Shown here piece after piece: positions 54,456 through 62,912 of a stretch of 64,000 bases of DNA (within the stretch, counting starts at the first letter, position 1; every line of letters begins with the position of its first letter). Both the position numbers and the translations under genes were made by a program. The notes beneath the pieces were generated by a model that did no database searches, was not told where the DNA came from, and saw nothing but the letters and a program-made list of their open reading frames with translations. Source of the stretch: Gemmata massiliana (GTDB taxonomy: Bacteria; Planctomycetota; Planctomycetia; Gemmatales; Gemmataceae); assembly GCF_901538265.1 (NCBI RefSeq), contig NZ_LR593886.1, positions 1,612,001-1,676,000 of the forward strand, in the 5' to 3' direction.

Positions 54456-55367
54456 TCACTCTCCGGTCACCACTTCACCACCGGCGCGGCTGGCCATATC
54501 CGCGGGCCCCCGGGGATCAGCGGCGTCCCGGATCAGTCGTACCGAGCCGTCGCCCAGAAGTACCTCGACACCACCCGGATGGGGGCTACAAAATCCCCAC
54601 TTGTCCGGACCGTTGAGCCGCAGCGGTCCTTCGTCGATTGCCCAGTAGCACCCGCTGATCCACAGCCCGTCCTGGTCCTTCCGGTTCGCACCGGCCCAGA
54701 TCCCGCCCCACTTGTCCCGGCTTTGATCCAGGCACACCTCCGCGACGAACAGAGTACCCGACAACCCGTCGGTCACGTCCCCGATCCGGATGCGACTGTT
54801 CCGGAACAGAACCCCGTTCGGGTTGTTGATGTTCGTAATCATGAGTCCCTTTGGCCCGGGTGCGGTTTGAGGACGCCCCCACCCGATCCCACGGTAGCTG
54901 GCTGTGGCGTGGCCGTCGTAGTTGGCGTTAGTTGGCGGACCCGGATCAACCGGGCAGCGGAAGACCGCGAGTGCGGTGAGCGTCTGTGGTGTGGGCGCAG
55001 TGAGGTTCGATCCGGCACCGAAGATAGTGTGCTCGGGATCGATCTGGTCGTGCAGTGCCGACTGCTCCAGGAACGGTAGGAGGAACACGGGCCAACCCCA
55101 GCCCGGTCCCGGTTGCGTGTCCGGGCGCTGGTCGCGGTACCCGGGCGGGAACTGACCGTGCACGCCCTCGTAGCCGTGGAGGGCCAACCCGATTTGCTTG
55201 AGGTTGTTGGCACACTTCATTCGGGCCGCGGCTTCGCGGACTTTCTGGACCGCGGGCAGGAGCAAGCCGATGAGAACCGCGACGATCGCGATTACGACCA
55301 GCAATTCGATCAGCGTGAAGCCGCTCGTGGGTCGGGGGCACGGAGTAGCGGGGGATGAGCGGGACAT
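54456..55367 (-). CDS. DUF1559 prepilin-like protein
   Basis: A 303-residue type-II-secretion/pilin-like protein. After a short leader comes the prepilin cleavage motif and helix GFTLIELLVVIAIVAVLIGL, then LLPAVQKVREAAARMKCANN and LKQIGLALHGYE, the universal start of DUF1559 proteins. The mature part ends with VLLGDGSVRLIRDAA, also diagnostic. Hundreds of paralogues occur per planctomycete genome; they are exported and assembled or displayed by a pseudopilus-type system, function unknown. Convergent with the ceramidase gene with 14 bases between the stops. Confidence 0.93.
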   Translation of the reverse strand: MSRSSPATPCPRPTSGFTLIELLVVIAIVAVLIGLLLPAVQKVREAAARMKCANNLKQIGLALHGYEGVHGQFPPGYRDQRPDTQPGPGWGWPVFLLPFLEQSALHDQIDPEHTIFGAGSNLTAPTPQTLTALAVFRCPVDPGPPTNANYDGHATASYRGIGWGRPQTAPGPKGLMITNINNPNGVLFRNSRIRIGDVTDGLSGTLFVAEVCLDQSRDKWGGIWAGANRKDQDGLWISGCYWAIDEGPLRLNGPDKWGFCSPHPGGVEVLLGDGSVRLIRDAADPRGPADMASRAGGEVVTGE

Positions 55368-55614
55368 GGTCGATCTCGCTTCGGGCGACCACTCCCTTGT
55401 ACCTCGCGGTGGCGCCACCTCCAAGGCGCGAGCGTTGGACTCTGAGGCACCCGACGCGCGGGGCGAACTAGTAGGAACCGGTGGCCGGGGCCGCGGTTAC
55501 GAGGTACATCACCGGGACGGAACCGGGCGTCGGTATTGTTTTCGCGCCAGACGCGGCATTCTTCTACAACCCCGAAGACGGCACCGCGTTCCGGTACGAA
55601 AGGACAACCGATCC

Positions 55615-56399: not shown

Positions 56400-57950
56400 G
56401 TGGTACGAAAGCACGACGCGCCCGATACGCTCCCCGCACTGGTCCGCGCCACACTGTCCTCCGTTCGGCTGGCCGAACTCTCGGACGGCGAACTGCTTGT
56501 GCGCTTCGTAGTGACGCGCGATAACGAACTCTTCGCCGAACTCGTGCGCCGGCTCGGACCGACCGTCCTCGGCGTGTGTCGGCGGCTCCTCGGAACCGGG
56601 CCGGACGCCGAGGACGCCTTCCAAGTGGCGTTCATGGTGCTGGTCCGCCGGGCCGGTTCTGTTAGACCGCCCGGTCGGGTCGCCGCGTGGCTTCACGGCG
56701 TCGCACTTCTTACCGCTCGGAAGGCGCGTCATGTTCGCAATCGCCGCGCGGCCCGCGAGTCGAGGCCCGATGCACCGGTCGAACGGGCCGGACCGTGTCG
56801 CGAGTGGGAACCGGATCTGGCGGAAGTGCTGGACGCGGAACTGGACCGGCTCCCCGCGAAGTACCGCCTGCCGGTGGTGCTCTGCGAGGTTCGCGAGTTG
56901 ACGGTCGCGCAGGCGGCCGCGGAACTCGGCTGGCCGGTTGGGACGGTTGCCAGTCGGTTGAGTCGGGGGCGAGCCGCGCTCGCGAACCGGTTGAGGCGCC
57001 GCGGGGTAACCGTTGGTTCGGTCCTATTCGCGACGGGGGGCATACGGGCAGCGACAGCACAAGTGCCGGCGCACTTCATCGGCGCCGCGGTGAGAGCGGC
57101 CGACACCGGTGGAACGGTTTCCTCGGCGGTCACATTACCCCTATTGAACGAGGTACTTCGAACCATGACTCTGAGCCAAGTACGGATGGTGGGTGCGTGC
57201 GTGCTGGTGACGGCCGCGGTGCTGGGCGGCTTCGGCCTGTTGCGCACCACGGTCGGTGCCGCAGCACCCTCTCTGGAGAACCCGGCTGTGGCGAAAAAGG
57301 AACCACTCAACCGGGCGATCGATGAGGACGATGACCGGCGCGCCGCGGCCGAGTTAGTCCTGACGATTCAGGTCGTGTCGGTAAAGGAAGTCGTCAACGG
57401 GGCGAACAAGGACGTGACCGTCATCGCAAAGGTGCTGGGGGTCGAGAAGTCGGCGTTCGGTACCAGGAAGGGCGAGGAGATCGCCATCACCTACACCGAT
57501 TCGGCGAAACTAATTCCCGGTTCCGAATCGATGCCGGCTCTGGAGAAGGGCGGGGTGTACCCGGCGTTCTTGAACCGCAACGATAAGGAGTACCAGCCGG
57601 CGGCGTGGGCCGCGAGCTTCCGGATGACGCCCGGGGGCGGACGGGTGAAGGAAAACAAGAACGCGGCCGAGCGGTTCGGCGCGGCCATGCACACGGTCGA
57701 CACGTTCCTGAAAGCGAAGACCACCGACCCGAAGCGGGACGAACTGCAAAAGGCGGTAATCGCGATCGGTCAATCGGGTGAGCACAACGGGTACGTGTGG
57801 GTTCATGCCCGGCTCAGTTGGGAGTGCGGGTTCCTGGAGGCACGGAAGGCCGAACTGGGCAACAATCTCACCAAGGAGCAGGTGAAGGAGATCGACGATC
57901 AGGTCGCGCACCTGAAGCGGACTCAGATTCTGATCGACGCACCGAAATAG
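56400..57950 (+). CDS. ECF sigma factor fused to a transmembrane helix and extracytoplasmic domain
   Basis: A 516-residue protein. Residues ~41-107 form sigma region 2 (ELFAELVRRLGPTVLGVCRR, DAEDAFQVAFMVLVRRAGSV) and ~143-198 region 4 (LDAELDRLPAKYRLPVVLCE, WPVGTVASRLSRGRAALANR). A hydrophobic helix at ~262-282 (RMVGACVLVTAAVLGGFGLL) follows, then ~230 residues outside, beta-rich, with VLGVEKSAFGTRKGEEIAIT and VYPAFLNRN segments and no recognised domain. Such C-terminal extensions with predicted membrane segments are known for planctomycete ECF groups and may replace a separate anti-sigma factor. The GTG at 56400 is chosen because the upstream 100 bases look intergenic; an ATG at 56289 is the alternative. 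Confidence 0.85.
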   Translation: MVRKHDAPDTLPALVRATLSSVRLAELSDGELLVRFVVTRDNELFAELVRRLGPTVLGVCRRLLGTGPDAEDAFQVAFMVLVRRAGSVRPPGRVAAWLHGVALLTARKARHVRNRRAARESRPDAPVERAGPCREWEPDLAEVLDAELDRLPAKYRLPVVLCEVRELTVAQAAAELGWPVGTVASRLSRGRAALANRLRRRGVTVGSVLFATGGIRAATAQVPAHFIGAAVRAADTGGTVSSAVTLPLLNEVLRTMTLSQVRMVGACVLVTAAVLGGFGLLRTTVGAAAPSLENPAVAKKEPLNRAIDEDDDRRAAAELVLTIQVVSVKEVVNGANKDVTVIAKVLGVEKSAFGTRKGEEIAITYTDSAKLIPGSESMPALEKGGVYPAFLNRNDKEYQPAAWAASFRMTPGGGRVKENKNAAERFGAAMHTVDTFLKAKTTDPKRDELQKAVIAIGQSGEHNGYVWVHARLSWECGFLEARKAELGNNLTKEQVKEIDDQVAHLKRTQILIDAPK

Positions 57951-58814: not shown

Positions 58815-59261
58815 TCACTTAACCGACGTGCCAGCGAGCACCCCGCCTGCGACGATCAGCGCCGTACCCGCGAGCAACCGCCAGACGTTCACGCCCTGCC
58901 ACTCTCCGAGCAGGACCAGGCCGATCCCCACCGCGACCAGCGTGTTCATGTTGTAGAGCGGGACAATCACGCTCACCTGGCCCTCGTACTTCCCCAACCC
59001 GAGCATGATTCCGAAGATGCCCGCGGACCAAAGCGCGGCGAACCCCGCGGTCTGAACGGCCCCGGACACGGTGACCGAAACGTCGCGCTGGGCGAGCGCG
59101 ACGGCTCCACCAATGGCGGCAACGACCAGCCCGATGATGAGAATGTACGGTCCCGGTGCGATGCCGGTCCGCGATGCGGTCTTCTGGAGAACGCCCGAGA
59201 CCCCCAGGAAGAACGCGGGTAACAACCCGCCGATCAGAATCGCCAGCCACTGCTTCGACAT
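58815..59261 (-). CDS. EamA-like (drug/metabolite transporter superfamily) membrane protein
   Basis: A 148-residue integral membrane protein with five predicted helices: QWLAILIGGLLPAFFLGVSG, GPYILIIGLVVAAIGGAVAL, FAALWSAGIFGIMLGLG, VSVIVPLYNMNTLVAVGIGL and WRLLAGTALIVAGGVLAG. One EamA-type unit; such half-size proteins may pair to form a transporter. Substrate unknown. GGGGGC precedes the ATG at 59261. Confidence 0.8.
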   Translation of the reverse strand: MSKQWLAILIGGLLPAFFLGVSGVLQKTASRTGIAPGPYILIIGLVVAAIGGAVALAQRDVSVTVSGAVQTAGFAALWSAGIFGIMLGLGKYEGQVSVIVPLYNMNTLVAVGIGLVLLGEWQGVNVWRLLAGTALIVAGGVLAGTSVK

Positions 59262-59347
59262 CGCTGCCCCCTTTGTGCTCAGGGGGGCAATATACGCACC
59301 CAACGAACAATCCCGCGTGAAGAGGATGCGCCACGGCACCGGGTGGC

Positions 59348-59932
59348 TCACCCGGACGATTTCTTCCACGTAAACTGTGGCGCCCGCTCAGCGCGAGCCG
59401 AGTGTGCAATCAGTGCGACCAGCCGCTTCTGCCGCGTTTCGTCCTTCTTGGCGCTCGCGACCCACCAACTGACCGCTTTCCGATACGACGCGGGTTGCTT
59501 CTGGAAGAATGACCACGCGGCAGCGTTCTCTTGCAAGAGCTTCCGATATGCCTCGGGTAGGTCCACGTTCCCCTGCTCGTGGGAGTAGATACCCGATCGG
59601 TTCTCCTTGCGGGCCTGGAACGCGGCCAAGCCGGTGGGCCGCATGCGGCCGAGCTCGGTCAATACCCGGACGCGATTGATGTTCACGTTGCTCCACACGC
59701 TGCCCGTCTTTCGTGGCGTGAAGCGGATCATGTAGCTCTCGGCGTCGATGCCCTTGCGGACGCCGTCGATCCACCCGTAGCACAGCCCCTCGTCGACCGC
59801 TTCGGGCCAGGTGATGCTCGGGCGCTTCGACCCCTTCTTGTAGAACCCCACCCACAGGGCGTCGCTGGTGGCGTGGTTCTCGGCCAGCCACTCTCCGAAG
59901 GCGACCTGGGTCTCGAAGAACGTGGGAGTCAT
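59348..59932 (-). CDS. YdeI/OmpD-associated family protein
   Basis: A 194-residue soluble protein. PTFFETQVAFGEWLAENHAT, ITWPEAVDEGLCYGWIDGVR, SYMIRFTPRKTGSVWSNVNI and the C-terminal WWVASAKKDETRQKRLVALI are standard for the YdeI family (bacteriocin-protection/OmpD-associated). The enzymatic role is unknown. Solitary gene with ~86 bases to its downstream neighbour. Confidence 0.9.
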   Translation of the reverse strand: MTPTFFETQVAFGEWLAENHATSDALWVGFYKKGSKRPSITWPEAVDEGLCYGWIDGVRKGIDAESYMIRFTPRKTGSVWSNVNINRVRVLTELGRMRPTGLAAFQARKENRSGIYSHEQGNVDLPEAYRKLLQENAAAWSFFQKQPASYRKAVSWWVASAKKDETRQKRLVALIAHSARAERAPQFTWKKSSG

Positions 59933-61464: not shown

Positions 61465-62912
61465 TCTCGACTGGTGCCGATTCTGGGCGCCGTCCGTGGT
61501 GAGGTAACATGAGGGTCGCTGAAACTCTCGTGGCCCTCGCCCACGGACGGCTGCCATGATTCTACCCGCTGAAGCGCACCCGCTGGTTCAAGTTCTGGCT
61601 CTTCACTTCACCCGCCCCACGTACCAGCGGTTCTCGGCACTCTTGGTCGGCGCCCTGGTGACGACCGGTCGGCGCACCGTGGCCAACGTGTTGCGCACCC
61701 TTCGGCACTTGGCGCCCGGGCACCCCAGCGGGTACCGACGGGTTCTGTCCCGGGCACCGTGGTCCGCCGTGGCACTGGGGTGCGCGATGGCCCGGTTCCT
61801 CCTGGATCATGTGGTACCCGAGGGCCCCGTCGCATTGGTCGGCGATGACGCGGTCGATGGACACAAGGGGCCACATGTGTACGGTAAGGCCCGGCACCGG
61901 GACCCGGTCCGCTCGACCCATTCGTACACCGCGTTCCGGTACGGGCACACGTGGGTGGTGCTCGCGGTCCTGGTGAAGTTCCCGTTCGCCACCCGCCCGT
62001 GGGCCCTGCCGGTACTCATCGACCTATACCGGTCTGCAGAAGATGACCGGAACCGGCGGCATCGCACACCGGCCCGAATCATGTGCGTGCTCTTGCGGGT
62101 GGTGCTGGCCCGGTTCCCCGAGCGGGCCGTCGTGTTCGCTGGGGATTCGGGGTACGGTACCCACGAGGTCGCGCGGTTCTGTTACCGCCACCGAGACCGG
62201 TTGACGTTGGTCCGCAAGGCCCACCCGGACGCCAACGTGTTCGACCCGCCCCCACCCTACACCGGTAAGGGGCGCCCCCGGGTCAAGGGCCAACGCCGGC
62301 TCAAGCCGCGCCAGGCCGTCGGTGCCGTCACGACCTTCACCCGGTTGGAGGTCGGGTGGTACGGAGGAGGGAAACGGACCGTCGAGACCCTTGAGGGCAC
62401 CGGGCTCTGGTACAAGGGCGGATGCGGGTTGGTTCCGGTTCGTTGGGTGTTCGTCCGTGACACGAGCGGCACACACCGGGACGAGTACTTCTTCACCACC
62501 GACCCGAACTTGACACCGACGGCGGTGATCGCCGCCTATTGCGGCCGGTGGAACATCGAGACCACGTTCCAGGAGGTGCGCGCGGAGTTCGGCCCGGAAA
62601 CGACCCGTGGGTGGCGCGAGAAGACCGTGTTGCGCGCGGCCCCGTGCCTGTTCGGGTTGCACACCGTCGTCGCGCTCCTGTTCCACGCGCTCCCGTCAGC
62701 CAAGCGGGTTGGTGCGGTGTCGTGGCCGGGCAAAGCGACCGTCACGTTCTCCGATGCCCTGTGCGCCGTGCGCCGGTGGCTCTGGGACGAACCCATTTTG
62801 CCACAGGCCGGTGCGGACGCGGCTCTCGATAAACTACCCGCCGCCGTGCGGGAGCTGCTACTCACCACGCTCGCACCGGCCGCCTGAACACCCAGAATCG
62901 GCACCAGTCGAG
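61465..62912 (+). mobile_element. insertion sequence with 22-bp perfect terminal inverted repeats
   Basis: Terminal inverted repeats: 61466-61487 (CTCGACTGGTGCCGATTCTG, then GG) and its exact reverse complement at 62891-62912. They enclose a single transposase gene (61556-62887). The tetranucleotide CTTA occurs directly outside on both sides (61461-61464 and 62913-62916), with one unpaired T at the left, a candidate 4-bp target duplication. About 1.45 kb. Both ends are perfect and the gene is intact, so it could be recently active. Confidence 0.85.
61556..62887 (+). CDS. DDE transposase (PF13546/IS701-like)
   Basis: A 443-residue transposase. The first Asp of the catalytic triad lies in VALVGDDAVDGHKGPHVYGK, the second in VVFAGDSGYGTHEV, and the Glu in WNIETTFQEVRAEFG; the order fits the DDE_5 (PF13546) group found in IS701-type elements. 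The coding frame is undisturbed. It begins about 68 bases inside the left repeat and ends just before the right repeat. Confidence 0.88.
   Translation: MILPAEAHPLVQVLALHFTRPTYQRFSALLVGALVTTGRRTVANVLRTLRHLAPGHPSGYRRVLSRAPWSAVALGCAMARFLLDHVVPEGPVALVGDDAVDGHKGPHVYGKARHRDPVRSTHSYTAFRYGHTWVVLAVLVKFPFATRPWALPVLIDLYRSAEDDRNRRHRTPARIMCVLLRVVLARFPERAVVFAGDSGYGTHEVARFCYRHRDRLTLVRKAHPDANVFDPPPPYTGKGRPRVKGQRRLKPRQAVGAVTTFTRLEVGWYGGGKRTVETLEGTGLWYKGGCGLVPVRWVFVRDTSGTHRDEYFFTTDPNLTPTAVIAAYCGRWNIETTFQEVRAEFGPETTRGWREKTVLRAAPCLFGLHTVVALLFHALPSAKRVGAVSWPGKATVTFSDALCAVRRWLWDEPILPQAGADAALDKLPAAVRELLLTTLAPAA

Follow-up and report, generated by a model that had tools for sequence, protein, structure and literature searches.

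How an ECF sigma factor is held in check when no anti-sigma gene lies beside it is the question raised by a gene of Gemmata massiliana. ECF sigma factors that lack an anti-sigma partner are numerous in planctomycetes of this group. The gene occupies 56400..57950 of the window, the 64,000-nucleotide stretch of DNA analysed here, in a genome of 10.1 Mb on a single contig; it and all its features lie on the forward strand (+). It encodes 516 residues, with a GTG start at 56400 and a stop codon at 57948-57950. According to Pfam, it is flanked by genes for a MarC-family membrane protein on the upstream side and for an alpha/beta hydrolase on the downstream side. The same gene order is found in a second Gemmata genome, whose orthologue (L003) is 90% identical at the DNA and the protein level alike. 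The orthologue carries indels of one and two bases just upstream of the position equivalent to 56400 and keeps the frame intact from there, which supports the GTG as the start codon.

The protein begins with two sigma domains. Sigma region 2 (residues 48-108; 56541..56723) matches Sigma70_r2 (PF04542) with 38.2 bits against a cut-off of 24, and sigma region 4 (residues 143-194; 56826..56981) matches Sigma70_r4_2 (PF08281) with 48.4 bits against a cut-off of 25.7. With sigma2 and sigma4 present and the other sigma regions unmatched in Pfam, the protein belongs to the ECF class (group 4). The residues after 194 have no Pfam match at E values up to 1. They contain a single strongly hydrophobic segment at residues 263-281 (57186..57242), where the 19-residue Kyte-Doolittle mean peaks at 2.23; elsewhere, residues 1-240 reach 1.15 at most and residues 291-516 reach 1.23. 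Membrane helices and signal peptides were assessed throughout by hydropathy and by eye. The hydrophobic helix is also present in the orthologue and in four near relatives. An earlier note on this DNA had described sigma regions 2 and 4 followed by a membrane helix and about 230 outer residues. The Pfam scores and the hydropathy bear this architecture out, and its boundaries shift: the helix lies at about 263-281 and the outer part at about 284-516 rather than 290-516.

The same arrangement recurs across the genome, which contains at least 150 Sigma70_r2 places (the best 150 of 224 candidates). All 150 sequences were examined, with paralogue frames taken from stop to stop. At least 100 residues follow region 4 in 105 of them, and a hydrophobic helix is located 25-110 residues after region 4 in 101 of these 105 long-tailed proteins and in 1 of the 45 short-tailed ones; the combination of sigma and helix is thus not a product of chance. 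Sigma4 and the helix are separated by a median of 55 residues. The four long-tailed proteins without a helix include 940223, which has a weaker hydrophobic stretch, and one that we take to be of the SnoaL type; in the other two, sigma was probably taken to end too early. The sigma factor singled out by the earlier note belongs to a set of roughly a hundred paralogues that differ in their outer parts.

The outer part of the 516-residue protein matches nothing among NCBIfam, Pfam and PDB sequences, and a scoring of all 26 candidates in its own genome gives no second match at E values up to 10. Its structure was predicted with AlphaFold from an alignment of seven sequences (pLDDT of the five models, 63.2 to 79.2). 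The model shows five strands and a helical tail, with a mean pLDDT of 79.2 and a pTM of 0.54. Among the best 50 of 994 Foldseek matches, 49 are NTR-type or NTR-containing entries, namely complement C3/C4/C5, agrin NtA, PCOLCE, TIMP, and meteorin. The best E value is 2.3e-4, and 4 of the 994 matches have E values up to 0.001. TM-scores by target are mostly 0.3-0.6 for single-domain targets, with 0.52 for agrin NtA and 0.58 for N-TIMP-3. VIA-align gives the best Z of 9.2 to agrin NtA (1pxu; 4.0 Å over 115 positions) and the same Z to meteorin (3.9 Å over 101); the match to complement C3 covers its C-terminal segment 1518-1663. Other OB proteins (PriB, RecO, and SSB) reach Z scores of 6.9-7.3, and a best Z of 7-8 is common by the tool's own warning. 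The NTR reading therefore relies on the rank and number of the matches more than on the gap in score.

On these predictions, residues 304-411 (57309..57632) resemble a netrin/TIMP-type OB fold, followed by a C-terminal helical region at residues 422-514 (57663..57941). The outer domain had been called unrecognised and a domain and structure search proposed for it; at the level of sequence families the search came back empty, but Foldseek and VIA-align both led to NTR-type structures, so that the description no longer applies to the predicted fold. The domain shares its predicted OB barrel with the NTR domains of agrin NtA, PCOLCE, complement C345C, and TIMP. It differs from them in having no detected sequence similarity to them and no barrel disulphide cysteines, and in being bacterial and fused to a sigma factor. 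The Pfam NTR and TIMP profiles are matched neither by the 516-residue protein nor by six outer-domain relatives, which give a single SHD1 match below the cut-off (14 bits against 23.7). NTR and TIMP domains contain conserved disulphides, and the inhibitors among them an N-terminal cysteine. Cys476, in the helical tail, is the only cysteine of the outer part, and the barrel has none. The outer domain is therefore not filed as a member of the NTR/TIMP family. A TIMP-like inhibitor role was considered and dropped, as the required cysteines are absent.

Relatives of the outer domain are scattered. A single-protein query found them in 7 of 95 family genomes, its own included, and an alignment query in 9 of the 95, two of them weakly (G031 and G050); in a few genomes, the alignment query scored the best 30 candidates. 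In a sample of the phylum, they occur in at least 3 of 392 genomes (its own included; best 7 candidates per genome). The domain is fused to a sigma factor in only 2 of the 95 genomes, that of the gene described here and that of its orthologue, leaving out the two weakest matches, L188 and L189. Seven relatives stand alone as short proteins with a signal-peptide-like start, which in L040 and L041 is obtained only from an internal ATG. The stand-alone relatives L004 and L005 contain the helical region, L006 and L008 are without it, and L007 is cut by a contig end. In G055, the outer-domain match continues past an in-frame TGA.

Since the seven stand-alone relatives begin like secreted precursors, the outer domain is probably an exported one. 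The charge distribution of the tethered family points the same way. From the N-terminal to the C-terminal side of the helix, net charge falls in 75 of the 101 membrane-tailed proteins, stays equal in 14, and rises in 12. The positive-inside rule over the family, together with the signal-peptide-like starts, thus supports a topology in which sigma is cytoplasmic and the C terminus lies outside, and agrees with the earlier proposal that sigma is tethered by a helix with its C terminus outside.

The stand-alone relatives and their leader-like starts also fit another reading, in which the helix is itself a signal peptide, signal peptidase frees an exported outer domain, and sigma is freed or constitutively active. 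A V-x-A sequence lies behind the helix of the 516-residue protein, and the strict motif [AV]xA[QDE] is somewhat over-represented in the family, at 14 of 101 against 8.9 ± 2.8 in shuffles. However, the general motif [AVST]xA is found behind the helix in 87 of 101 proteins against a shuffle mean of 87.0, showing no enrichment, and we regard cleavage by signal peptidase as highly improbable.

Comparison with close relatives suggests that the outer part is exchangeable. A tree built from sigma and 75 residues of the tail joins the gene and its orthologue to L011 and L012 (support 0.99), and 880286 (L131) and L028 come next (0.97); within the group, L011 is placed with a support of only 0.78. The chassis of sigma and helix is 55% identical in L011 over residues 10-333 and 60% identical in L012 over residues 10-306 (best 79 candidates per genome). 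The outer parts of L011, L012, 880286, and L028 are similar to one another in each pair (E 6.6e-25 or better), but are unlike those of the 516-residue protein and its orthologue (best E 2.6). They are helical by eye and contain repeated LTxEQ-like words, which in our view recall the periplasmic proteins Spy and CpxP; 880286 has no Pfam match over the cut-off. The simplest reading of these sequences is that the outer part was replaced on the lineage leading to the gene described here; the joint would fall after residue 281, where the helix ends, and no later than about residue 306-333. The short sequences flanking L011 and L012 show neither the MarC nor the hydrolase gene, and the same genomic place is thus not implied. 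With chassis 55-60% identical and outer parts different, such relatives would be expected to share promoters and respond to different signals. A second swap possibly separates 3653593 (L079) and 6433963 (L111) of the same genome, whose sigma tree distance is 0.25 and whose outer parts are dissimilar. The outer part of L079 has HEAT and T2SSG matches in Pfam, and that of L111 has none.

Over the whole family, the 101 outer parts fall into 52 groups, 44 of them single and the largest with 36 members; the groups, defined by BLASTP at E 1e-4 over at least 50 residues with single linkage, may still be distantly related to one another. The commonest WD40-type profile matches 31 of the 101 outer parts, other WD40-type profiles being outside this count. 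Another tethered sigma factor, at L061:2171-3529 (-), has a Secretin_N domain in its outer part. The nearest sigma relative in the same genome carries a similar outer part in 30 of 101 cases, against 386 of 5050 random pairs. Random pairs thus share an outer part less often, and the outer parts partly follow sigma descent.

The many single groups, the mere 30 of 101 nearest relatives with a similar outer part, and a fused form confined to two family genomes (without L188 and L189) are what would be seen if the chassis multiplied and caught exported domains at random, the outer domain being a mere anchor that senses nothing. Such neutral accretion is set against the lower sharing among random pairs and against the selection acting on the outer barrel. 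Between the orthologues, dN/dS values are.051/.269 for the whole gene,.032/.351 for sigma, and.061/.355 for the outer barrel, so that both ends of the gene appear to be maintained by purifying selection. The ratios of the linker (.085/.17) and of the helix (.064/.116) are both above that of sigma. We consider neutral accretion improbable, and take the outer domain as a candidate sensor.

The means of inhibition is less apparent. No anti-sigma gene is recognisable beside the sigma gene in either Gemmata genome, by a Pfam scan of the neighbours and a genome search for zf-HC2, in line with what had been noted from the sequence; anti-sigma families other than zf-HC2 were covered by the Pfam scan of the neighbours alone. 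The genome search found at least three zf-HC2 anti-sigma domains (best 150 of 190 candidates), at 6886557, 5283143, and 1404301, and all three adjoin other, short sigma genes.

Between sigma4 and the membrane helix lies a linker (residues 205-258; 57012..57173) that matches no Pfam family. A full-length model was calculated from an alignment with 95 of the other 100 membrane-tailed sigma proteins of the genome; L114, L123, L158, and one place each in L113 and L128 were left out by hand. In this alignment, five outer-domain relatives were wrongly placed against sigma, and the outer part of the model was not used. The pTM is 0.56. The sigma blocks have pLDDT values of 92-97, and residues 121-140 between the two domains 62-74. 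The linker comprises helices at 205-217, 224-235, and the start of 245-283, the last of which continues into the membrane helix; pLDDT is 65-81 over residues 201-220, including the first helix, and 90-95 over residues 221-280, including the other two.

In the model, sigma2 and sigma4 are folded together. Their arrangement deviates from that in ECF factors bound to an anti-sigma factor by 6.6 Å over 151 positions for CnrH-CnrY, 8.3 Å over 156 for SigW-RsiW, 8.6 Å over 149 for RpoE-NepR, and 13.6 Å over 130 for BldN-RsbN, versus 22.9-28.5 Å over 128-147 for polymerase-bound ECF factors; comparisons that align one sigma domain alone carry no weight on the arrangement. SigG1, free of an anti-sigma factor, fits equally well (8.3 Å over 156). 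The compact model need not mean inhibition, because free SigG1 fits as well as most of the complexes. AlphaFold also tends towards compact single chains. As a single-chain prediction without interdomain error estimates, the model gives a hint that the linker may do the job of the missing anti-sigma factor. An assignment of the linker as an anti-sigma domain proper, for which only its secondary structure and the compact arrangement of sigma speak, was not adopted.

Two cysteines may contribute to the compact state. Cys60 of sigma2 (56577..56579) lies in a column that is cysteine in 91 of the 101 membrane-tailed proteins, the present one included, and in 4 of the 45 short-tailed ones. For Cys162 of sigma4 (56883..56885), the numbers are 96 of 101 and 1 of 45. 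Both columns are cysteine in 87 of the 101. According to section 3.5 of PMC8999054, the ECF57 group has a conserved cysteine in each sigma domain, possibly linking sigma2 and sigma4, and control by protein contact and conformational change is proposed for some members. The 516-residue protein resembles ECF57 as described in that text in its C-terminal extension, the lack of an associated anti-sigma factor, and a cysteine in each sigma domain; Cys60 and Cys162 are compared with those of ECF57 by pattern and not by exact position. The extension printed there is WD40-like, whereas that of the present protein is netrin-like by predicted fold. WD40-like repeats, prevalent and not universal in ECF57, are absent from residues 298-516 in Pfam at E values up to 1. 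We therefore call the protein ECF57-like, a likeness by description and not by group profile or tree, and do not call it a member of ECF57.

The cysteine pattern, which belongs to the ECF57 proposal of control by contact (PMC8999054), and the compact sigma with its partly confident linker would suit a tethered sigma factor in which a conformational change or a protein contact, rather than proteolysis, is the switch. The signal would then need to cross a single membrane helix, and residues 289-319, modelled with low confidence and probably flexible, would make a poor rigid coupler. A purely conformational switch therefore seems rather unlikely to us.

We favour, with modest confidence, a transmembrane receptor and transcription factor in one protein, in which sigma is kept at the membrane until a signal sets it free. 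A cytoplasmic ECF sigma would be connected through the helical linker and the single membrane helix to an exported domain of netrin/TIMP-like fold that ends in a helical tail. In the resting state, sigma would be compact at the membrane, with regions 2 and 4 folded together via the linker helices, and the Cys60/Cys162 pair, as a disulphide or a metal site, perhaps helping to hold it. The outer domain would have a ligand or a partner protein that triggers release or opening. Release, most simply, would proceed by a juxtamembrane and then an intramembrane cut, after which sigma would direct RNA polymerase to its own promoters. Ligand sensing, inhibition by the linker, and release of sigma are proposed steps; the outer fold and the compact sigma are model predictions, and sequence data establish the architecture, the family, and the differing outer parts of close relatives. 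Points against this reading are the higher dN/dS of linker and helix, the lack of a Pfam match for the linker, and the failure to detect a common promoter word pair before the 101 genes. The Ala/Pro-containing stretch behind the helix (residues 284-303; 57249..57308), modelled with low confidence, is a possible protease-accessible site. M50 site-2-type proteases match five open frames of the genome; these matches prove nothing about release, because the same search is positive in 14 of 14 control genomes.

Related systems lend the proposal some precedent. In PMC8999054, proteolytic release is reported for the membrane-tethered ECF factor IutY, and proteolysis is also proposed for ECF48/52/53. 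IutY (ECF243, Pseudomonas putida) likewise comprises sigma, a membrane helix, and an outer part in one chain, with an inhibitory tether, but it carries a fused cell-surface-signalling anti-sigma domain, whereas the present protein has no Pfam domain after sigma. The fused domain of IutY is of the FecR type. No fused anti-sigma domain like that of ECF243 is found after residue 194 in Pfam at E values up to 1. SCO4117 and ECF48/52/53 of actinobacteria also have sigma fused to a membrane helix and an outer domain, and differ by a zinc-finger anti-sigma segment; zf-HC2, the trait of ECF48/52/53, is matched neither in the 516-residue protein nor at its place in the genome search. In the proteome of the related Tuwongella, as reported in PMC8567305, two ECF sigma factors appear in the Triton fraction only, and three others appear in the Triton or SDS fraction in a single experiment.

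Tethered ECF sigma factors, and planctomycete ECF factors with C-terminal extensions, are already known. A search of titles and abstracts found no mention of a netrin-like domain joined to a sigma factor; the membrane-helix architecture may already be described in key papers on the ECF groups of planctomycetes. New, as far as searched, are the predicted outer fold, its exported stand-alone relatives, the swap, and the number of chassis copies counted in a single genome. Possible, though doubtful, is a wider reading in which sigma, linker, and helix form a general single-chain receptor chassis, a bacterial analogue of tethered transcription factors such as Notch, with about a hundred copies per cell, exchangeable sensors, a clamp, and a netrin-fold sensor. 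If so, outer sensors would be exchanged by recombination behind the membrane helix, the linker helices and the two-cysteine lock would form a built-in anti-sigma clamp, and the sensor fold would resemble animal domains that bind matrix and inhibit proteases. Such a chassis could serve as a base for the construction of single-gene receptors.

A promoter motif controlled by the factor, which the earlier note had proposed to look for, did not emerge from the family: in the upstream regions of the 101 membrane-tailed genes, no pair of words is clear of a simulated control. Two single words are over-represented, CGCACT in 38 of 101 upstream regions against 15.8 expected and AAAAAT in 27 against 9.9; CGCACT is tentatively taken for conserved coding sequence.

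The wider surroundings of the gene in the window contain three further frames. A frame at 58818-59369 (-) lacks a Pfam match and shows, by eye, a number of hydrophobic stretches, and a transposase with a DDE_5 domain is encoded at 61556-62887 (+), about 3.6 kb downstream of the sigma gene. At 54456-55424 (-) lies a gene for a DUF1559 protein with an N-terminal methylation motif, a family common in planctomycetes.
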